DNA of 64,000 nucleotides from Chitinophagaceae bacterium. GTDB lineage: Bacteria; Bacteroidota; Bacteroidia; Chitinophagales; Chitinophagaceae. Where the stretch lies: positions 1,364,001-1,428,000 of the forward strand of contig JALHNJ010000001.1 in assembly GCA_022843585.1 (NCBI GenBank), in the 5' to 3' direction. Below the pieces are notes generated by a model. That model made no database searches. It was not told the DNA's origin and saw nothing but the letters and a program-made list of their open reading frames with translations. Positions 46,587 to 55,396 of this stretch are shown here, in pieces (positions within the stretch are counted from its first letter, which is position 1; each line of letters begins with the position of its first letter). Position numbers and translations under genes: made by a program.

Positions 46587-47417
46587 TTACTTTAATTCGG
46601 CCAACAACTTATTATTCAATTCTACATAATCATTGTTCTTAGCAGCTGTTGCTAATTCTTTTGATTTTTCTGCAGCAGTCTTTGCTTCAGCTTTTTTACC
46701 CAATTTCGCTAAGCAATTAGCTCTTTGGTGATGAATCCAGAATGCAGTTGGCTGTGCTTCTACAGCTTTGTCAAACCATGCAAGTGCCTGGTTCAGATCT
46801 TTGCCATTGTCCATATAATACATTGCTGCATTAAAGTACGGACGATTGTCTTTGTTCATCAACTGATCGATCTGCGCCATTACTTTTGTTTCAACATCTG
46901 TAGTTATTGGTAAAATAACTGCTGTTTTATCCCACATAATGTGCAATTCGCAACTGTTAGATTTAATGTTGGCAAACTGCATCGTGAAATTTTCCATGCT
47001 TTCGTCCATGCTGATTGTTTTTACTTCAGTACGAACTACATCCTGATCTTGTTTGTAAGCAGCAGGGCTTGTAACATCTAATTGTTTAGTGATAATTAAT
47101 GTCCAGTTGTTTTTTTCAGGAATAGAAAGCAAGCCATATTTACCGGCTTTAATTTTTGTACCGCCGATGGTTACATCGTCGCCAAAAGTTAACACCGTAG
47201 CCTGGTTAGCACCAGTGCGCCATACATTTCCAAAAGGAACAAGGTCGCCAAAAATTTTTCTGCCTTTCATAGCAGGACGGGAGTATGATAACTCAACGGT
47301 TGAAATACCAAAATCCTGTTTAATAGTTTGTGCAGGACTAGGAGCAGGCGTTTTTAATTGTGCCTCAGCAATCAATAAGCCGCATATTGCAACGGCAGAA
47401 AGAAATATCTTTTTCAT
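46587..47417 (-). CDS. DUF2911 domain protein with TPR-like tail
   Basis: A 276-residue protein with signal peptide (about 1-19, IAEAQ). Residues about 30-170 match the DUF2911 pattern (VELSYSRPAMKGRKIFG, VPFGNVWRTGANQAT, AGKYGLLSIP). The C-terminal 75 residues resemble a TPR pair (AAMYYMDNGKDLNQALAWFDKAVEAQP). DUF2911 proteins are abundant secreted Bacteroidota proteins of unknown role. The stop codon adjoins the inverted-repeat element. Monocistronic. Confidence 0.88.
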   Translation of the reverse strand: MKKIFLSAVAICGLLIAEAQLKTPAPSPAQTIKQDFGISTVELSYSRPAMKGRKIFGDLVPFGNVWRTGANQATVLTFGDDVTIGGTKIKAGKYGLLSIPEKNNWTLIITKQLDVTSPAAYKQDQDVVRTEVKTISMDESMENFTMQFANIKSNSCELHIMWDKTAVILPITTDVETKVMAQIDQLMNKDNRPYFNAAMYYMDNGKDLNQALAWFDKAVEAQPTAFWIHHQRANCLAKLGKKAEAKTAAEKSKELATAAKNNDYVELNNKLLAELK

Positions 47418-47583: not shown

Positions 47584-49011
47584 TTAGAAATTAATCTTTA
47601 CCGTAGTCCTTCCTTTCTTAGCCTTCTGTTTCCATTTCGGACCTTCTTTTATCAGGCGGATGGCTTCTTTATCGCAGGTAGCACAAAGCGATTTTTCAAT
47701 TTTGAAATTAACAGGCTTGCCATTTTTGTCCACTTCAAATGATACTTCTACGGCACCTAAAGGGGTATTTGATTGCTTAGGTTTAAAATCTTCCGGAGCT
47801 TTTAAATTATTGGCAAGGTAAGAGTCATATTTTTCCCAACCATCCGCTGGCTCAGGTTCTTCCATCTTAATGTTATTGGTGTTGGAACGGGCCGCTGCAT
47901 TGGGTTTCTGCGAACTCACAACTAATTCTGATAAACTTCTTCTATCATCCTGCAGCACCACCTGGTTGTTGGGTATACTATTGCGCAATTGCACCTGGCT
48001 GTTTTCAAAACCAATGGAACGTACTTCTACATTCAGCATTGTATCGGGTGATGTAAGATTGAAAAACCCTTTTGCATCAGTATATGTTCCTGCATTATTA
48101 TCCTGCGCATTGGTAACATTGGCAAAAGGCACCCCGTTATTTTCTGCATCTGTAACACGGCCACGGAAAATATTTGCTTGTTGATATCTGGTTTGAGGTT
48201 CCGCATTGCGATTAGTAGTAACAGCTCTGTTTACTTGCTCATTCGATTCTTGCTGTGACCTTTTTGCTAGCACTTCTTTTTCCTGCTTTGTCTCAGCACC
48301 TGCTGTACGTTTTTTTAACTCGTCCTTAATGCCGTCTTTGTCATCTGCTACTTTGCCACTCGCAACAGCATCTTCTTTAGCAAGTACTTTTACTGGCGGA
48401 GCTACTGGAGCTACTGTTGGTGTACTAGTAGCAACAGGAGCTATATCATTACTTGTATTTGCTGGTGTAGATTTAGCCTCACCGGGTACAGTTGTTTCAA
48501 TTTTACTAGTTGTTCCTTTATCAGTGGTAGCAACAGTAGGTGTATTAACTGTTGGCTCCTTTCTTATTTGATTATTATTTGTAACAGTTGCCGGAGCGGT
48601 AACATTTGTATCAGCAACTGCAGGCTTTTCTTTTGCTGCACTGCTTTCTTCGGCATGTGCTATATTGTTATTCTTTTTATTAAATCCAAATTGATAAACC
48701 AATAATCCTGCGCCGGCAATAAAAACAATTACAGCAGCGGCACGCAACATTCGGAATGAGTCCCGACGACCCGTACCCAACGGAATTACTTTAGCCGTTG
48801 TGGTTCTTTCCGCCAATCTTGTTTTAAGATCAGCAATATCAGCAACTGCATCAACGCCTGACACAGCATAACCTTCCAATGCATCCGCCAAAAACGGATC
48901 ATCTAAGGCTGCTTTTTCAAGGGCATGTCTCTCTTTTGGAGAAAGTTTTCCCTGGTGATATTTTTCAATATCAACGGCAGAAAATTGCGGTATGTTATTA
49001 TCGTTTGCCAT
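47584..49011 (-). CDS. Anti-sigma-like membrane protein with CarboxypepD_reg and TonB C-terminal domains
   Basis: A 475-residue protein. Residues about 9-75 form a short cytoplasmic zinc-free anti-sigma-like region (DIEKYHQGKLSPKERHALEKAAL) like other Bacteroidota anti-sigma partners. One membrane helix is at about 90-108, followed by a low-complexity Ala/Thr/Pro/Val-rich linker (about 120-270), a carboxypeptidase-regulatory-like domain (about 278-360, FRGRVTDAENNGVPFANV) and a TonB C-terminal-like domain (about 400-475). It is 88 nt downstream of the ECF sigma gene. The layout suggests a sensor that couples envelope signals to the sigma factor (inference). Confidence 0.8.
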   Translation of the reverse strand: MANDNNIPQFSAVDIEKYHQGKLSPKERHALEKAALDDPFLADALEGYAVSGVDAVADIADLKTRLAERTTTAKVIPLGTGRRDSFRMLRAAAVIVFIAGAGLLVYQFGFNKKNNNIAHAEESSAAKEKPAVADTNVTAPATVTNNNQIRKEPTVNTPTVATTDKGTTSKIETTVPGEAKSTPANTSNDIAPVATSTPTVAPVAPPVKVLAKEDAVASGKVADDKDGIKDELKKRTAGAETKQEKEVLAKRSQQESNEQVNRAVTTNRNAEPQTRYQQANIFRGRVTDAENNGVPFANVTNAQDNNAGTYTDAKGFFNLTSPDTMLNVEVRSIGFENSQVQLRNSIPNNQVVLQDDRRSLSELVVSSQKPNAAARSNTNNIKMEEPEPADGWEKYDSYLANNLKAPEDFKPKQSNTPLGAVEVSFEVDKNGKPVNFKIEKSLCATCDKEAIRLIKEGPKWKQKAKKGRTTVKINF

Positions 49012-49099
49012 AAGGCTTTATAAATCTAAAAAATTCTAAAAAACAAAAAATCAACTCCCTACTCAGAAATCTCGAACTATCAACTCTGACTCCAAACTC

Positions 49100-49684
49100 C
49101 TAACTCGGAACTCCCGACTCAGCCTTCTCCATACATATCTTCAAATTTCGTCTTCCATTCTGTATCAAACTCCGCACCTGGTTCCACTCCAACCCTGTTA
49201 TTTCCACTATTTCGTTGTAACACTTTCCTTCCAGGTAAAAGAGTTTTACTGTATCTCTTTGCTCGTTGGATAGTGTGCCGAGACAGTGTTCTAACTTATT
49301 GAAACTCTCTTCTTTTTCCAATACACCATTCAGATGCACATTTTCCTCCGATTGCACAAGCTCGGTCTTAAACTCTACGGTTTTCATGTTTTTGGGTGTC
49401 CGCAATTGCATCAGGCAGTGATTTTTGGCCACCTGGTGCAGCCAGCCCCGAAAATTATCCACCTCATGCTTCTTTAATTTGGTGACCAATTCTTCAAAAA
49501 TCAGCATCACACTGTCTTTGGCGGTTTCCGGTTCCTTATAATATTTAAGGCATACCCCATAAACCAGTTCCATGTACCGCTGGTACAGTTCACCCAGGAC
49601 AGCCATGTCGCCCGATTCTTTATAAAGAGCCACCAGCTCTTTGTCGGATAACGAATTGTTAGATATGTTCTTAATGAAAGACAA
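49100..49684 (-). CDS. ECF-type RNA polymerase sigma factor
   Basis: A 194-residue sigma-70 family factor with region 2 (YQRYMELVYGVCLKYYKEPETAKDSVMLIFEEL) and region 4 (LGTLSNEQRDTVKLFYLEGKCYNEIVEITG). The start is a TTG at 49684, as a stop codon two codons upstream excludes an earlier start and the next ATG would remove part of region 2. ECF factors redirect polymerase to a small regulon; the neighbouring anti-sigma-like gene is the obvious partner. The regulon is unknown, but the plus-strand genes from 49945 are natural candidates. Confidence 0.9.
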   Translation of the reverse strand: MSFIKNISNNSLSDKELVALYKESGDMAVLGELYQRYMELVYGVCLKYYKEPETAKDSVMLIFEELVTKLKKHEVDNFRGWLHQVAKNHCLMQLRTPKNMKTVEFKTELVQSEENVHLNGVLEKEESFNKLEHCLGTLSNEQRDTVKLFYLEGKCYNEIVEITGLEWNQVRSLIQNGRRNLKICMEKAESGVPS

Positions 49685-49745
49685 CGCCTAAAATTAATGA
49701 ATAAAAATTTATGTTGCCATCGTCCGGTTCCCTGGGCATCGTCCC

Positions 49746-49765
49746 TTGCGTCGCACACTTGTACT
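49746..49765 (+). repeat. Dispersed intergenic repeat, copy 3 (GCGTCGCAC family)
   Basis: TTGCGTCGCACACTTGTACT, identical to copy 2. It lies in the divergent gap between the sigma factor and the VWA gene. The rest of this 260-nt gap contains a hairpin (CCCTCT 49837-49842 with AGAGGG 49851-49856) followed by TAGAGTTTTCAATATTCGGAG, a degenerate relative of the element at 46327-46564. No gene is seen. Confidence 0.75.
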
Positions 49766-49944
49766 TTAGTAATTCTACTGAGCTTGTGAGTCGGACATCA
49801 CCCCATCTTCATTCATTAATATCGGGGTTTCTCCAACCCTCTCCTTAAGAAGAGGGAGGTAGAGTTTTCAATATTCGGAGTAATAGTTGGGTGAGGTTTA
49901 TGCAATCCACTTCATACCCGCATCAGGGTATAAAATACTATTTT

Positions 49945-51903
49945 ATGAAGCGAATTTTGATTCTGCTGGTGCCCGTTGTAATTATCTTCCTGGCATTCCG
50001 GCCTGTAAAATCTATTACTGTTTCTGGAACAATTACCGATGAAACAGGAGCAACCCTTGCTGGCATTACTGTAAAAGTAAAAGGTACCAGTACAGGTGTT
50101 ATGTCGTCCAATAACGGCACCTATAAAATTACCGCCCCTAATGAAAATGATAAACTGATTTTTAGTGGGCCCGGTTTTGAGCAATCAGAAATTTCCATAA
50201 AAAGTCGTTCCTTAATAAATGTTACACTAAAGAGACCTGCTCTTCTACATTCAGAAGTTGTTGTAACAGGGTATAGCAAGAATTTAGAAGGTAGTGTACC
50301 CGGTCTTTATGTCCAGGGTAGTCCTGGCGCATCAAGAAAAGTTCAGGTAAGAGGAGTTTCATCTCAACCAATTGACGGCTTTTATGGTTTCGATCAACCC
50401 CGTGAAGATTTTAACCGGGAAGGATATGAAAGCATCACCGAAAATATTTTTTTAAAAGCAACAGATAATCCACTTTCTACTTTTTCTATTGATGTAGATG
50501 CGGCTTCGTATAGTAATGTACGTCGCTTTTTAAACCAGGGGCAATTGCCACCTGCCGGTGCAGTGCGGATTGAAGAAATGGTCAATTATTTTAAATACGA
50601 ATATCCACAACCAACAAAGGAAGAACCATTCTCTATCAACACAGAAATATCGGATGCTCCCTGGAATAAAGAACATAAACTGGTACTAATTGGATTGCAG
50701 GGTAAAAAGATACCTACAGAAAACCTGCCTGCATCAAACCTTACTTTTTTAATTGATGTGTCGGGTTCTATGCAAGGGCCAGAAAGATTGGGATTGGTAA
50801 AAGCATCTATGAAAATGCTGGTAGATCAAATAAGAGAACAGGATAAAATATCTATCGTAGTTTATGCTGGTGCTGCTGGATTGGTATTAGCCCCAACCAG
50901 CGGTGCAGAAAAAACAAAAATAAAAGATGCGATCGATAAATTGGAAGCCGGTGGTTCTACAGCCGGTGGTGCAGGTATTAAACTGGCTTACAAAACAGCT
51001 AAAGAAAATTTTGCAAAAGGTGGTAACAACCGGGTGATCCTTTGCACCGATGGTGATTTTAATGTGGGTGCAAGCAGTGATGATGATATGGTTCGTTTAA
51101 TCGAAGAAGAAAGAAAAAGTGGTGTGTTCTTAACCGTATTAGGTTATGGCATGGGTAATTACCAGGATGCGAAAATGCAAAAGTTGGCTGACAAAGGAAA
51201 TGGCAATCATGCATACATTGATGGTATCAGCGAAGCGAAAAAAGTATTGGTAAATGAATTCGGCGGTACACTGTTTACCATTGCCAAAGATGTAAAACTG
51301 CAGGTTGAGTTTAACCCTGCTAAAGTACAAGGCTATCGCCTGATCGGTTATGAAAACAGGATGCTGGCCAAAGAAGATTTTAATGATGATAAAAAAGATG
51401 CTGGCGAATTAGGCAGTGGGCATACCGTAACTGCACTCTATGAAATAATTCCAGTTGGAGTGAAAAGTAGCTTCTTAAAAGATGTAGATAAACTGAAGTA
51501 TCAGAAAAATATTGAACCACTCAGCAAATCATCCAACAATGGAGAAATGCTAACCGTTAAATTTCGTTACAAAGCTCCTGATGGAGAGGTAAGTAAGCTG
51601 ATCGAACATCCGGTGCAGGACAAACAAATTTCGATTGCAAAAACATCCGACAATTTTCGCTTTGCTGCTGCAGTTGCACAGTTTGGTATGTTGCTGCGCA
51701 ATTCAGAATTCAAATCAAACGCTTCTTTTCTGGATGTGATCAATATGGCTCGTAAAGCAAAAGGGAATGATGATGAAGGTTATCGTTCAGAATTTATACG
51801 CCTGGCAGAAAGTGCAGAAATGTTAGCCAAAGCAAAGCCTGGTAACAATAAGACCGAGGAAAACGTTGAAGAAGATACAAAGCCCTTATCTAAGAATAAA
51901 TAG
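49945..51903 (+). CDS. YfbK-like VWA protein with CarboxypepD_reg and SusC-plug-like N-terminus
   Basis: A 652-residue exported protein starting at ATG 49945 (signal-anchor MKRILILLVPVVIIFLAF). Residues about 22-95 are a carboxypeptidase-regulatory-like domain (GTITDETGATLAGITVKVKG). It is followed by SEVVVTGYSK and GSPGASRKVQVRGVSS, both typical of SusC TonB-receptor plugs. The rest is YfbK-like: a vWF-linked N-terminal domain (about 155-260), a VWA domain with MIDAS motif DVSGSM (near 280), and a YfbK C-terminal domain. VWA domains bind proteins via a metal ion. There is no barrel. A terminator follows. Confidence 0.85.
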   Translation: MKRILILLVPVVIIFLAFRPVKSITVSGTITDETGATLAGITVKVKGTSTGVMSSNNGTYKITAPNENDKLIFSGPGFEQSEISIKSRSLINVTLKRPALLHSEVVVTGYSKNLEGSVPGLYVQGSPGASRKVQVRGVSSQPIDGFYGFDQPREDFNREGYESITENIFLKATDNPLSTFSIDVDAASYSNVRRFLNQGQLPPAGAVRIEEMVNYFKYEYPQPTKEEPFSINTEISDAPWNKEHKLVLIGLQGKKIPTENLPASNLTFLIDVSGSMQGPERLGLVKASMKMLVDQIREQDKISIVVYAGAAGLVLAPTSGAEKTKIKDAIDKLEAGGSTAGGAGIKLAYKTAKENFAKGGNNRVILCTDGDFNVGASSDDDMVRLIEEERKSGVFLTVLGYGMGNYQDAKMQKLADKGNGNHAYIDGISEAKKVLVNEFGGTLFTIAKDVKLQVEFNPAKVQGYRLIGYENRMLAKEDFNDDKKDAGELGSGHTVTALYEIIPVGVKSSFLKDVDKLKYQKNIEPLSKSSNNGEMLTVKFRYKAPDGEVSKLIEHPVQDKQISIAKTSDNFRFAAAVAQFGMLLRNSEFKSNASFLDVINMARKAKGNDDEGYRSEFIRLAESAEMLAKAKPGNNKTEENVEEDTKPLSKNK

Positions 51904-51933
51904 CTAATCATTTAACAGCCGGTTAGTGATAAC

Positions 51934-51965
51934 GGAGTTCCGTTTTTACGGAACTCCCCCTTTTT
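51934..51965 (+). terminator. Intrinsic terminator after the VWA gene
   Basis: A perfect 10-bp stem (GGAGTTCCGT at 51934-51943 with ACGGAACTCC at 51948-51957), TTTT loop, then CCC and a T run. The next gene starts at 51992, so it may have a separate promoter. Confidence 0.88.
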
Positions 51966-51991
51966 AAACCAACAATTTTTAAACTAAGCTT

Positions 51992-53101
51992 ATGAAGATA
52001 ATATTTACACTATTTGTACTAATGATTTCATCTTTTGGTTGGGTAGTCGCTCAATCAACAACAATTACTACTGATAGTAGTATAACAAAAGCATTTTGTA
52101 CAAAGAGATCTGTAAATGGGGAAAAAGGTGAACGAGATTCTCTTAAAACAGGTGTGTGCAAAATGGGGGAAAAGCCACTTGGTAGAGTAATGTCAGAAGA
52201 TGAGCCTACTCCCGCAGGTGCTACAAGGATTAGAATTGTTTGCACTGTAAAAAATACTTTTTCTGGCCCTCCACCTTTAATTGTTATTGATGGTATTCCT
52301 TATCGACCTGATTCAGACTCTGTAAATAAGTATGGAAGTAAATTAGCAAATCTTGATCCCAATGATATAGAGACTTTTAATATTATTAAGGAAAGTGATG
52401 CTATTGGTTCAATGGGATGTAGACGTAATTCGGGTGTAATCATAATTACTACAAAAAATGCCAATAAAACAAAGTTTATCATCAAGGATTTCTTAAATGG
52501 TGAAAGAATCGCTGGTGCAACTGTTTCTTTTATTTCTGTAGATAAAAAGGATACAGTAATGCTTGCAGCAAATGATAGTGGAGTAATACTGACAAATAAG
52601 CTAAAGAAAACTGTTGCGTATAATATGTTTGTTTCAGCAACGGGCTACAAATTATTTAGTACGAATTTGAATAAAGGAAATGCTGCTAATAAAAAGGAAA
52701 TATTGTTAGAAAGAAATGAAAAAACCTGCGATGAAGTTGTAGTATCTGTTATTGGCGAGGTGAGAAGATGTAGAACAGGATGCCGTGCTACCCGGACAAT
52801 AGTTTATCCTCAAGCCAGGCAAAATGATCTTGCAGATAAAAGTAAATTAAAAATATTCCCTAACCCAGTACCAAAAGGTAGCATTTTCAATATTGAAACT
52901 TCTACAGAATCAGAACAAGCTCTCACTATTAAAATCACCGGGCTTGATGGCAAACTTCTGCTATCCCAATCCCCAAAAGCTATAAAAGGACTCAACAGAT
53001 TCAGCGTTTCCACCGATGCCCGCTGGGTTTCAGGAATTTATTTGGTACACCTGTATGCAAACGGCCAATTACTGGCATCCAGTAAACTAATACTACAATA
53101 A
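51992..53101 (+). CDS. Secreted TonB-plug-like protein with T9SS sorting domain
   Basis: A 369-residue protein with signal peptide (about 1-20, WVVAQ). Residues about 88-160 resemble the second half of a SusC-type plug (PLIVIDGIPYRPDSDSV, LDPNDIETFNIIKESDAIG and GVIIITTK). A carboxypeptidase-regulatory-like domain follows (about 165-240), then CDEVVVSVIGEV. The last 85 residues are a type IX sorting domain (KLKIFPNPVPKG ... SGIYLVHLYANGQLLASSKL). It lacks any barrel, so it cannot be a receptor itself. It precedes the two Cys-domain paralogues with a 10-nt gap, suggesting an operon. Confidence 0.78.
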   Translation: MKIIFTLFVLMISSFGWVVAQSTTITTDSSITKAFCTKRSVNGEKGERDSLKTGVCKMGEKPLGRVMSEDEPTPAGATRIRIVCTVKNTFSGPPPLIVIDGIPYRPDSDSVNKYGSKLANLDPNDIETFNIIKESDAIGSMGCRRNSGVIIITTKNANKTKFIIKDFLNGERIAGATVSFISVDKKDTVMLAANDSGVILTNKLKKTVAYNMFVSATGYKLFSTNLNKGNAANKKEILLERNEKTCDEVVVSVIGEVRRCRTGCRATRTIVYPQARQNDLADKSKLKIFPNPVPKGSIFNIETSTESEQALTIKITGLDGKLLLSQSPKAIKGLNRFSVSTDARWVSGIYLVHLYANGQLLASSKLILQ

Positions 53102-53111
53102 TTCATCCTTT

Positions 53112-54218
53112 ATGAACAAGAAATTACAGCTTTCCATCGCCGAACCCTGCCACGAAAATTGGGATAATATGAGTCCCGTTGAAAAGGGAAAATTTTGCGG
53201 CTCCTGCCAGAAACAGGTAATTGATTTTACTAGTAAGAGTGATCAACAGATAGCACAGTTTTTTAAAAAGCCCGGTACCGGGTCTGTTTGTGGCCGATTT
53301 ATGACTGACCAATTAGAAAGAGATATTGCTATTCCTAAGAAAAGAATTCCCTGGGTAAAATATTTTTTGAGCTTTTTGTTGCCTGCATTATTTGTATCAA
53401 AAGCATCTGCTCAAAAAAACAACAAAGCGTATGTGTCTGCAACAAAAGATACCGTACGTACACCAATAACTAGCGAATTCAGAACACTGGGTATGGTATT
53501 GCCTAAAAATATAATGGCGGTAGAAAACGAAAAGAAAAATGACCTGATTACTAAAAGTGATCCAAAGCCTGTTCTATTCAAAACAACTATTTGTGGGTTG
53601 GTGGCCAATGAAAACGGAGACCCTATTCCATATGCAAGTATAACCACAGGAGTAAAAGGTTTTGGTGCAGTGGCAGATGAAAACGGTGTGTTCAGTTTAC
53701 CGGTAAGCCATTTATCTAAGGACAGTGTATTGCATGTTTCATCTGTTGGGTTTGAGGCTTCTGATATTAAGGTAGATATAGAAGATGCTTCCGGATCAAA
53801 GCTTGTAATTAATTTAAAACCTGAAAGTATGTTAGGGGAGGTGGTAGTGGTTGCTGGTTATACTAATGTTGTAAAAGGTTATGTAACTGGAGCTGTATCC
53901 AAAATTACTTCTAGTGTGGTAGCGACCAAAGTACCTGAGGTTTACACCTATGAAATAAATAAAATATCCGTTTATCCAAATCCTGTTTTAAGCGGTACTA
54001 ATCTTATGGTTGAGTGGGATAATTCTGAAGAAGGATATTATATGCTTCAATTGCTAAACCTTTCTGGTCAGCAGGTACACAAAAAAGAAATTTGGATTGA
54101 TGCAGAAGCAAAATTGCTAAACGTAGATATGCCGAAAACCGCTGCTGGAAATTATTTTATAGTTTTTACGAATAAAAGATCGGGTAAAAAATATACGGAG
54201 AAAATTATCGTTCAATAA
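53112..54218 (+). CDS. Four-cysteine N-domain protein with CarboxypepD_reg and T9SS domains (paralogue 1)
   Basis: A 368-residue protein. Residues 1-65 form a distinctive domain with Cys13, Cys29, Cys32 and Cys60 (PCHENWDNMSPVEKGKFCGS; SVCGRF). A signal-peptide-like segment follows at about 76-101 (RIPWVKYFLSFLLPALFVSK, then ASAQ). After a linker there is a carboxypeptidase-regulatory-like domain (about 158-235), an EVVVVAGYT...VTGAVSKIT stretch as in SusC plugs, and a T9SS sorting domain (about 280-368, ISVYPNPVLSG). A four-Cys cytoplasmic domain before an export signal is unusual. Function unknown. Confidence 0.75.
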   Translation: MNKKLQLSIAEPCHENWDNMSPVEKGKFCGSCQKQVIDFTSKSDQQIAQFFKKPGTGSVCGRFMTDQLERDIAIPKKRIPWVKYFLSFLLPALFVSKASAQKNNKAYVSATKDTVRTPITSEFRTLGMVLPKNIMAVENEKKNDLITKSDPKPVLFKTTICGLVANENGDPIPYASITTGVKGFGAVADENGVFSLPVSHLSKDSVLHVSSVGFEASDIKVDIEDASGSKLVINLKPESMLGEVVVVAGYTNVVKGYVTGAVSKITSSVVATKVPEVYTYEINKISVYPNPVLSGTNLMVEWDNSEEGYYMLQLLNLSGQQVHKKEIWIDAEAKLLNVDMPKTAAGNYFIVFTNKRSGKKYTEKIIVQ

Positions 54219-54232
54219 CCGTAAATAGACGT

Positions 54233-55396
54233 ATGGCCAAACAACTGCAACTTACCATTCCCAAACCTTGCCATGAAGATTGGGATGTAATGACACCAGC
54301 TGATAAAGGGAGATTTTGCGGCTCTTGCCAAAAACAGGTAGTAGATTTCAGTACTATGAGCGACCGGCAAGTGGCTGAGTTTTTTAAAAAGCCTCGCACA
54401 GGTTCTGTTTGTGGTCGTTTTATGTCAGACCAGCTTGAAAGAGAAATTGAAATACCTAAAAAGAGAATTCCCTGGGTAAAATATTTTTTTCATTTTGCAC
54501 TTCCAGCTTTTTTATTGTCAATTAAATCATCTTCTGCAAAAGCACAGGGGGAGGTAAAGATTAGGAAAACTGAAACTCCAATAAAAAATAATTTGGAAAG
54601 ACCTAAGTTGATAGGTGATACAATATTGATGGATGAGATTATAGTATTAGCACAAGCAAAACAACCAACAGGTAAGGATTTTTCAATTTATCCTAAAGTT
54701 GAAAATTCGCAACTGACAAATCTTTTATCTGGAAGATTTGGATGTTTTGTAGTGCCAATGAAAAAAGAACTTTTGGATATTGCTAAAGTGAGAGATTTAA
54801 GCGTTTCAGCTTTGTATAAGAATATTACAGGTTCAGTCGTTGATGAAACAGGTGCTTCCGTTCCAGGGGCAACTATAAAAATTAAAGATACAAGAATAGG
54901 AGTGCTTGCAGATAATAACGGCAAATTTATACTGAACATAAAAGAGGGTACTACATTGTTGGTAACCGGCGCAGGCCTTGAACCTGCAGAGTTCCAGGTA
55001 AGAGAAGAGAGAAGTATTGAAATTGTTGTTAGAAAAGCATGGGTAGGAGAAGTTGCAGTTGTTGTTGGTAAAAGAAAAAATGACAAACAGGAAAATTCTA
55101 CTCAATTACATTTTTTAAATGTAGATACTGCACAAAATTTTTTCAAAGTATTCCCTAATCCAATTATTGCCGGTACAAGTGTTACTATAGAGGCTAAAAA
55201 AATTAAAGAAGGCAATTACACTCTGCAATTACTTAATCAGTCAGGGCAATCGATTCACCGAAAAGAAATATGGGTTGATGGTAAAGGAAGGTATATTAAT
55301 ATGAATGTACCTGTAGTGGCTGGTGGTTCTTATTTTCTGGTGCTTACAAATGAAAAAACAGGCAAGAAGTATTCAGAGAAAATCATCATTCAATAA
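54233..55396 (+). CDS. Four-cysteine N-domain protein with CarboxypepD_reg and T9SS domains (paralogue 2)
   Basis: A 387-residue tandem paralogue of the preceding gene. The N-terminal 95 residues are very similar (KPCHEDWDVMTPADKGRFCG; Cys13, 29, 32 and 60 conserved), as is the internal signal-like segment ending SAKAQG. The middle diverges: about 110-190 is unique. A carboxypeptidase-regulatory-like domain follows (about 195-270, GSVVDETGASVPGATIK) with GEVAVVVG after it, and the T9SS sorting domain (FKVFPNPIIAG ... GGSYFLVLTNEK) ends the protein. The two genes are 14 nt apart. Near-identical DNA around 53340 and 54464 indicates duplication or gene conversion. Confidence 0.75.
   Translation: MAKQLQLTIPKPCHEDWDVMTPADKGRFCGSCQKQVVDFSTMSDRQVAEFFKKPRTGSVCGRFMSDQLEREIEIPKKRIPWVKYFFHFALPAFLLSIKSSSAKAQGEVKIRKTETPIKNNLERPKLIGDTILMDEIIVLAQAKQPTGKDFSIYPKVENSQLTNLLSGRFGCFVVPMKKELLDIAKVRDLSVSALYKNITGSVVDETGASVPGATIKIKDTRIGVLADNNGKFILNIKEGTTLLVTGAGLEPAEFQVREERSIEIVVRKAWVGEVAVVVGKRKNDKQENSTQLHFLNVDTAQNFFKVFPNPIIAGTSVTIEAKKIKEGNYTLQLLNQSGQSIHRKEIWVDGKGRYINMNVPVVAGGSYFLVLTNEKTGKKYSEKIIIQ

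Follow-up and report, generated by a model that had tools for sequence, protein, structure and literature searches.

The 64,000-nt stretch of DNA analysed in this study (the window, part of the 4.49 Mb genome of a Chitinophagaceae bacterium) carries the genes for an extracytoplasmic function (ECF) sigma factor, an anti-sigma-like protein, a protein with a von Willebrand factor A (VWA) core, a plug-like protein and two four-Cys proteins, A and B (Table 1; all coordinates count from the first letter of the window). An initial annotation had ascribed to the five proteins other than the sigma factor a carboxypeptidase-regulatory-like domain (CPD) followed by an EVVV-type motif, the order found at the N-terminus of SusC-type TonB receptors, and had proposed that they form one system controlled by the sigma factor. 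We translated these five proteins, scanned them with Pfam and NCBIfam under the curated cut-offs, and compared the locus with those of related genomes. The gene set, its domain architectures, synteny, natural fusions, promoter motif, regulon and a further motif copy inside the sigma gene are supported by computation; the TonB domain of the anti-sigma, the likely identity of the EVVV-type motif with the SusC TonB box, the promoter proposed within the sigma coding sequence and the larger regulon are additions to the initial annotation. The sigma factor contains regions 2 and 4 within a short protein (Sigma70_r2, E 1.1e-8; Sigma70_r4_2, E 5.9e-7; TIGR02937, E 4.6e-22). The VWA gene starts at ATG 49945, the mechanically assigned GTG start at 49891 lying 5' of its promoter; profile scans of the VWA protein were run on 49939-51903, which is two codons longer, and residue numbers taken from them are 2 too high.

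Table 1. Features of the sigma/anti-sigma locus and the basis of their assignment
Feature	Position	Strand	Basis
Anti-sigma-like protein	47584..49011	-	475 aa; Pfam CPD and TonB_C, AlphaFold2, conserved place beside sigma
TonB C-terminal domain of anti-sigma, residues 419-473	47593..47757	-	Pfam TonB_C and hhalign
CPD/NTE match of anti-sigma, residues 283-365 (Pfam; box included)	47917..48165	-	Pfam and Foldseek
TonB-box-like SELVV of anti-sigma, residues 361-365	47917..47931	-	Motif position
ECF sigma factor	49100..49684	-	194 aa counted from TTG (putative start); Pfam and TIGR02937
Promoter motif inside sigma coding sequence, oriented to anti-sigma gene	49333..49359	-	Exact match
Promoter motif of VWA gene	49898..49924	+	Exact match, position weight matrix score 21.6; 20 nt before ATG 49945
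VWA protein (CPD - TonB box - putative plug remnant - vWF_A - VWA - YfbK_C)	49945..51903	+	652 aa; Pfam
Putative TonB box EVVV of VWA protein	50254..50265	+	Compared with the mutated box VDEVVV of Bt1763 (PMC7782687)
Plug-like protein	51992..53101	+	369 aa; TIGR04056, TIGR04183, Por_Secre_tail
Promoter motif inside plug-like gene end, 32 nt before four-Cys A	53053..53079	+	One mismatch; similar sites before other four-Cys genes
Four-Cys protein A	53112..54218	+	368 aa; Pfam CPD, Por_Secre_tail
Four-Cys protein B	54233..55396	+	387 aa; layout as four-Cys A, with EVAV; Pfam CPD, TIGR04183

The module said to be shared by the five proteins was recovered by profile search, weakly in one of them. 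CarbopepD_reg_2, the N-terminal extension (NTE) of SusC receptors, exceeds the Pfam cut-off in the anti-sigma (E 4.8e-11), the VWA protein (5.5e-14), four-Cys A (4.8e-12) and four-Cys B (1.5e-11). In the plug-like protein, both CPD (E 0.02, residues 169-251) and Plug (E 0.028) stay under the cut-off, and there is instead a SusC plug segment, residues 79-164 matching the SusC/RagA model TIGR04056 (E 8.2e-14) together with the SusC signature (E 2.4e-4), with scores far below the cut-offs of those models despite the E-values. The plug here precedes the CPD, opposite to the order in SusC. Besides its CPD, the VWA protein matches YfbK_C (1.7e-78), vWF_A (7e-43) and VWA (8e-18), and its segment VPGLYVQGSPGASRKVQVRGVSS is what we read as a plug remnant; this segment is variable or absent in the VWA relatives, whereas the box mostly stays.

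Behind the CPD region, each of the five proteins has an EVVV-type motif, in clear form in the VWA protein (SEVVVTGY), the plug-like protein (CDEVVV, with EVVV at residues 248-251) and four-Cys A (GEVVVVAGY), and degenerate in four-Cys B (GEVAVVVG) and the anti-sigma (SELVV). A study of Bt1763 identifies the SusC NTE as PF13715 and the VDEVVV behind it as the TonB box; with the box mutated, growth on levan was no better than after deletion of SusD (PMC7782687). Our motif matches this published box and is probably the same element; the order of NTE (PF13715) and box was found in the VWA protein and four-Cys A, and more weakly in the other three. The absence of a beta-barrel claimed earlier was borne out, with no barrel family matched in any of the five by the Pfam and NCBIfam scans; the remainder of their 368-652 aa is taken up by other domains, leaving no space for a barrel (22 strands in SusC). 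The VWA protein, four-Cys A and, more weakly, the other three are thus predicted to be barrel-less proteins that have the head of a receptor, TonB box included. For relatives in two locus sets that share genomes, with only identical sequences taken out, we counted boxes in a 40-aa stretch at the CPD end and compared the number with shuffled sequence and with the following 40 aa. The box was present in 59 of 88 VWA proteins (2.9 expected by shuffling, 0 in the following 40 aa), in 28 of 44 anti-sigmas (0.8 and 3) and in 8 of 20 four-Cys proteins (0.6 and 0). The CPD as such is common in this genome, with 55 matches, but 42 of them lie within frames of 700 aa or more, and therefore a cluster of small CPD proteins is the unusual part.

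The anti-sigma consists of a helical N-terminus of cytosolic type, one transmembrane helix, a long disordered linker, the CPD, the degenerate box and a TonB C-terminal domain. The latter was detected as PF03544 (E 3.6e-6, 27.8 bits against a cut-off of 24.6), one of six TonB_C matches in the genome, and a comparison by hhalign of 13 anti-sigma ends (out of 44 aligned) with 9 TonB ends, taken from this genome and the family genomes, gave a probability of 98.8 with E 1.3e-16. Our own profile of the domain matches 43 of the 44 linked anti-sigmas, and a consensus of 44 anti-sigmas reads CPD, LSEVVVxG and then TonB domain. In the AlphaFold2 model, calculated with 44 anti-sigmas as input (mean pLDDT 70.7), the conserved N-terminus is helical, a helix spans residues 87-109, confidence is low in stretches from 130 to 270, and both the CPD and the alpha-beta-beta-alpha-beta end are modelled with confidence. 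Foldseek matches this model best to a SusC NTE crystal structure (9hfj, E 1.3e-6, TM-score 0.82 by target). We considered whether the box of the anti-sigma pairs in cis with the TonB domain of the same protein; the model shows no such pairing. No named anti-sigma family was matched in the Pfam and NCBIfam scans of the window proteins, nor were FecR, DUF4974 or STN in the proteins scanned with Pfam. From the transmembrane helix, the helical N-terminus and the adjacency of the genes, seen at 44 of 71 loci, we infer a candidate pair in which the sigma factor would be held by this protein.

The neighbourhood is conserved among relatives, as the initial annotation would have it. With the VWA protein as query, near full-length relatives were found in 24 of 60 family genomes, its own included. 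Among 25 family loci (L034-L058), the sigma gene lies upstream and divergent in 18, counting one (L050) with overlapping mechanical reading frames, while five are without a sigma gene in the stretch, one of them at a contig end; plug-like and four-Cys genes follow or flank the VWA gene in some. For a wider set, 84,980 species genomes were scanned and the best 80 loci taken (L063-L142), which makes it a best-match set and not a fair sample. It contains 79 loci with a VWA reading frame, 70 of them with CPD, giving 71 CPD-VWA genes together with the window; the sigma gene is upstream and divergent in 44 of these 71, and the anti-sigma is present in 44. The divergent set of sigma, anti-sigma and CPD-VWA occurs in Chitinophagaceae, Sphingobacteriaceae, Cytophagales, Saprospiraceae and Bacteroidales, with records from Mucilaginibacter, Pedobacter, Sphingobacterium, Hymenobacter, Pontibacter, Dyadobacter, Roseivirga, Reichenbachiella, Saprospiraceae, Paludibacter and Bacteroides fragilis. 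In two genera (L057 and L058), the sigma gene is directly followed by a single fused protein with a transmembrane N-terminus, CPD, plug, vWF_A, VWA and YfbK_C; the sigma-binding-domain profile matches this N-terminus in L058 only, that of L057 being judged by eye. In L056 and L129 it is the anti-sigma that carries a plug. These domain swaps and fusions are strong evidence that the parts would work together, and they speak for the single system suggested at the outset. A chance cluster of a common CPD domain was ruled out by neighbourhood, fusions and promoter.

The promoter motif was found by gapped-word counting upstream of the sigma and VWA genes in 59 loci, of which 38 contain one and the same dyad, compared with at most 7 in shuffled sequence. 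The refined motif, tTTATGGAAT-N13-TGCATCC (TTATGGAAT-N13-GCATCC), is oriented toward the VWA gene and mostly ends 50 nt or less from the annotated start. As mechanical starts are often too early, we scored it from 250 nt before to 260 nt after the VWA start. Across the window and the 79 loci, it occurs at 42 of 46 CPD-VWA loci with a linked sigma or anti-sigma, at 7 of 25 without either and at 3 of 9 VWA genes without CPD (Fisher p 6.5e-8; this test, the shuffles and the codon counts below treat loci sharing ancestry as independent). In Ferruginibacter paludis, where the sigma gene is on a different contig, both it and the VWA gene have the motif. Of 198 genomes drawn evenly from the phylum, 5 contain the strict consensus TTATGGAAT-N12-TGCATCC, at 7 sites in all and with none in the reversed control, and therefore the motif drifts between families; the genome of the window has zero matches to this strict form.

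A second exact copy lies inside the sigma coding sequence and points to the anti-sigma gene. Across 60 aligned sigma genes from both locus sets, with identical ones removed, the residues encoded at this site vary and the bases hardly do. Histidine is CAT in 53 of 53 cases (62% elsewhere in these genes), glutamine CAA in 27 of 28 (47%), glutamate GAA in 27 of 28 (66%), valine GTG in 18 of 19 (34%) and the preceding leucine CTT in 13 of 13 (13%); seven of the 60 genes are without the histidine. Conservation at the protein level as the cause of this copy was ruled out by the codon choice. We read it as a putative sigma-dependent promoter for the anti-sigma gene, which would provide negative feedback.

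The genome of the window contains 8 exact motif sites; if one mismatch is allowed, the number is 51, compared with 16 for the reversed control. Besides those before the VWA gene and inside the sigma gene, exact sites precede the TonB gene of an ExbB-ExbD-ExbD-TonB operon (20 nt from its ATG), an unlinked four-Cys gene, a 2036-aa alpha-2-macroglobulin (A2M; domains MG2, A2M and bMG10), a META-domain protein, a VIT-domain protein and one protein without confident family. The last has 348 aa (L156, G000:C5:222460), and its site lies 19 nt upstream. For each of three unlinked target classes, we took the best 30 loci of the family genomes, own genome included, searched up to 200 nt upstream and counted incomplete loci as misses. 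The motif was present in 21 of 30 for TonB, 23 of 30 for A2M and 19 of 30 for four-Cys (a class that takes in VWA-linked copies and the window's own gene), as against 0, 2 and 0 of 600 shuffled regions. At the TonB genes (L207-L236), 15 of the 21 sites have a spacer of 12 and not 13 bases, and the motif stands at a nearly fixed distance, about 16-24 nt, ahead of the point where the match starts. In eight other genomes, sites besides those at VWA and sigma genes stand before A2M-like proteins (Mucilaginibacter, Limnovirga, Sphingobacterium), a four-Cys protein (Mucilaginibacter), ExbD (Sphingobacterium) and a DUF4139-like protein (Roseivirga), and strict sites in a genome of another family (G162) before DUF4139-like and VIT-like proteins; protein labels in other genomes were read from the sequence and are not profile hits. 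Sphingobacterium pedocola (L199) has a second ECF sigma gene, away from the VWA gene, with the motif 22 nt upstream, which suggests that sigma paralogues may be wired into one regulon. The presence of the motif beside the sigma gene across the phylum and before unlinked members lends computational support to the postulated control by the ECF sigma factor, and we infer that this sigma reads this motif. In the open PMC literature, to which the search was confined (subscription papers, supplements and ECF classification papers lying outside it), no description of the unit, the motif or the regulon was found. The Flavobacterium psychrophilum SM6 motif, as reported with a CGT box, is a different one (PMC9723704).

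The plug-like protein and the two four-Cys proteins end in sorting tails of the type IX secretion system (T9SS), 3 of the 5 proteins in all: plug-like with TIGR04183 (2.5e-8) and Por_Secre_tail (9.4e-7), four-Cys A with Por_Secre_tail (5e-8), and four-Cys B with TIGR04183 (6e-6, over its cut-off) and Por_Secre_tail (3e-5, slightly under). By their sorting domains, these three are putatively secreted T9SS cargo. On this ground the locus could be taken for a T9SS or surface-assembly system, with the three proteins as surface cargo and the sigma pair monitoring secretion, for which PorXY-SigP of Porphyromonas, reported to monitor secretion, is the model (PMC7712824). We hold this for highly improbable: no sorting tail was found in the anti-sigma and VWA protein of the window nor in the two relatives scanned (L111 VWA, L129 anti-sigma), and the TonB, A2M and META proteins do not belong to the T9SS. 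As many loci do without them, the plug-like and four-Cys genes count as accessory, and T9SS assembly as the main function is not favoured, as the core often stands without sorting-tail proteins.

Four-Cys A is composed of a Cys4 N-terminus, a signal or transmembrane segment, CPD, EVVV and the T9SS tail, and its four cysteines are invariant across 11 aligned homologues. The N-terminus comprises about 70 residues with conserved CHxxW, FCxxC and VCGRF before the hydrophobic segment (window 53112-53345 and 54233-54480; L267-L296). This segment, by eye, often has an AxAQ-type cleavage site at its end, and a lipobox-like LTGC in an unlinked copy (L154/L267). The Cys domain stands ahead of the signal peptide and has no Pfam match. 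Its best matches among solved structures are c-type cytochromes (best E 6.7e-7, over a short GKxCxxC stretch), a resemblance that is probably coincidental. The structural model of the four-Cys protein is poor (pLDDT 65.6), and its Foldseek matches, among the 50 listed of 1847, are Ig-like, complement and CPD/NTE folds.

Several known systems resemble parts of this unit. FecIRA and FoxIRA likewise combine an ECF sigma with a membrane anti-sigma whose periplasmic end handles receptor N-terminal parts, and FoxR/FoxA is the closest experimental precedent among the systems compared, the signalling domain of FoxA being reported to bind FoxR and shield it from proteolysis (PMC11637429). In contrast to these, neither barrel nor STN was found here, the head of CPD and TonB box is placed on the anti-sigma, VWA and four-Cys proteins, and the anti-sigma ends in a TonB domain and not in a FecR-type one. 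Dma/Das and EcfO-Reo of Bacteroides are also Bacteroidota ECF pairs with a sigma-binding domain (putative in the present anti-sigma), one transmembrane helix and a long disordered tether (PMC13088901), and Reo is thought to sense outer-membrane stress (PMC13114119). However, the C-terminus of Dma is a beta-barrel and Reo is said to extend to the cell surface, while no barrel of this type was found on the present anti-sigma, which ends in CPD and TonB domain; the EcfO regulon, as described, has nigD genes. The SusC/RagA transporters (NTE, TonB box, plug and barrel) share the CPD (PF13715) and the VDEVVV-type box after it (PMC7782687), but no barrel was found here, and of the plug the window's VWA protein keeps a reduced form at most. 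An anti-sigma gene with its own sigma-dependent promoter, thought to end the response, is reported for SigH-RshA of Corynebacterium glutamicum, though with other proteins (PMC3489674). The anti-sigma shares the TonB C-terminal domain (PF03544) with the TonB family, and differs from it in its N-terminus, which is another domain.

Taken together, we consider that the locus probably encodes a Bacteroidota ECF sigma/anti-sigma unit with an envelope-stress-type regulon, built on contact between TonB boxes and a TonB domain. The sigma factor would be held at the inner membrane by the anti-sigma, the periplasmic arm of which is TonB-like (long linker and TonB C-terminal domain) with a receptor head inserted. 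The TonB domain and CPD of this arm may bind the TonB boxes of partners that have no barrel and, perhaps, those of receptors that are idle or not assembled; engaged boxes would keep the anti-sigma whole, by analogy with FoxR/FoxA. Loss of engagement, or competition from TonB and damaged receptors, would release the sigma factor to read TTATGGAAT-N13-GCATCC promoters for the CPD-TonB-box-VWA protein, four-Cys CPD proteins, TonB, A2M and others, and also to drive the anti-sigma from within the sigma gene. If box binding protects the anti-sigma as in that analogy, fresh VWA protein and fresh anti-sigma would close the loop and end the response. This mechanism fits with a suggestion by Gray et al., who ascribe to the NTE a possible role in specificity where several TonBs are present (PMC7782687). 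More tentatively, and with somewhat less than even expectation, we propose that the anti-sigma is a TonB-like sensor of free TonB boxes in the periplasm, such as those of unassembled or unenergised SusC-type receptors, and that the VWA-type CPD-TonB-box proteins are a built-in decoy or brake. DegS, which measures unfolded porin tails, offers a comparison for such sensing.

A number of observations weigh against the proposed unit and its TonB-box contact. The strict box pattern misses 29 of the 88 VWA proteins and 16 of the 44 anti-sigmas, including the weak SELVV of the window's anti-sigma, and likewise misses the EVAV of its four-Cys B; in five Dyadobacter loci (L091, L097, L108, L109, L112), the VWA box is degenerate with the TonB domain kept. 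The anti-sigma is under the TIGR01352 cut-off (20.7 against 27.1), its AlphaFold2 model shows no strand at the box (confidence below 50 from residue 364), TonB structures are absent among the Foldseek matches listed (best 50 of 428), and its TonB end matched nothing among PDB sequences with E below 0.69. Of the 28 exact motif sites counted in the eight other genomes (6 in the reversed control), several stand before no fitting gene. The unit is broad yet patchy across the phylum, a full-length CPD-VWA match being present in at least 25 of the 198 evenly drawn genomes, some with internal stops; this count is a lower bound because some matches begin at the VWA core.

Part of these points would also follow if the regulon were real and CPD and EVVV were merely periplasmic Ig-like modules and relics left by the shuffling of genes with receptors, the anti-sigma sensing something else without TonB-box contact. 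The abundance of the CPD in the genome, the VWA plug remnants that vary freely and are often lost, the box left unpaired in the AlphaFold2 model and the degenerate Dyadobacter boxes agree with such a reading. We consider it rather unlikely, however, since the box stays in most VWA relatives (the 59 of 88 above) even where the plug is reduced or lost, the TonB C-terminal domain is kept in all but one of the 44 linked anti-sigmas and the motif stands at the TonB gene in most family loci (21 of 30).

This last site could instead indicate that the boxes serve the real TonB: energised TonB would pull the VWA protein or the anti-sigma, and sigma activity would report the state of the Ton motor, thus sensing force or load, and TonB would be made in response. 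The motif just before the TonB gene of the Exb operon and the box in the anti-sigma consensus are in line with this, as are inner-membrane vWA proteins with YfbK-like fold that have been proposed as force transducers (PMC12204202), comparable to the vWF_A-VWA-YfbK_C core described here. Those proteins are linked to TolQ/TolR-like motor genes, unlike the present one, and that source names no sigma factor or CPD/TonB box in the section on them; the N-terminal hydrophobic segment of our VWA protein, inspected by eye and with no tool search, is without their SHLS motor motif (PMC12204202). As the anti-sigma already has a TonB domain, the role of a direct competitor is simpler, and we regard a motor sensor as improbable relative to the TonB-box contact with the anti-sigma proposed above.

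To our knowledge, how Bacteroidota, reliant on SusC-type receptors, sense trouble in receptor assembly or energising is largely open. The unit is a concrete candidate: its sigma factor is widespread, its anti-sigma bears a TonB domain, its promoter code can be read in whichever genome is at hand, and TonB belongs to its regulon. For CPD-TonB-box proteins without a barrel, and for VWA proteins of the YfbK type, it suggests a first function that could be put to the test, and within its sigma gene lies a broadly conserved putative promoter.

The same five Dyadobacter loci combine a degenerate VWA box with an anti-sigma that has no CPD match. An association of VWA box strength with the anti-sigma CPD (mean 6.1 in 35 against 4.3 in 9, p 3e-4) was set aside, being mainly the effect of one clade, with 5 of the 9 from Dyadobacter. 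Six flavobacterial loci (L111, L124, L131, L133, L139, L142) have a CPD-VWA gene without linked sigma and without promoter motif; five of them have a plug match, and several have similar upstream genes. A DUF2911-TPR gene (46587-47417) follows the anti-sigma gene in the window and in 9 of the 25 family loci.

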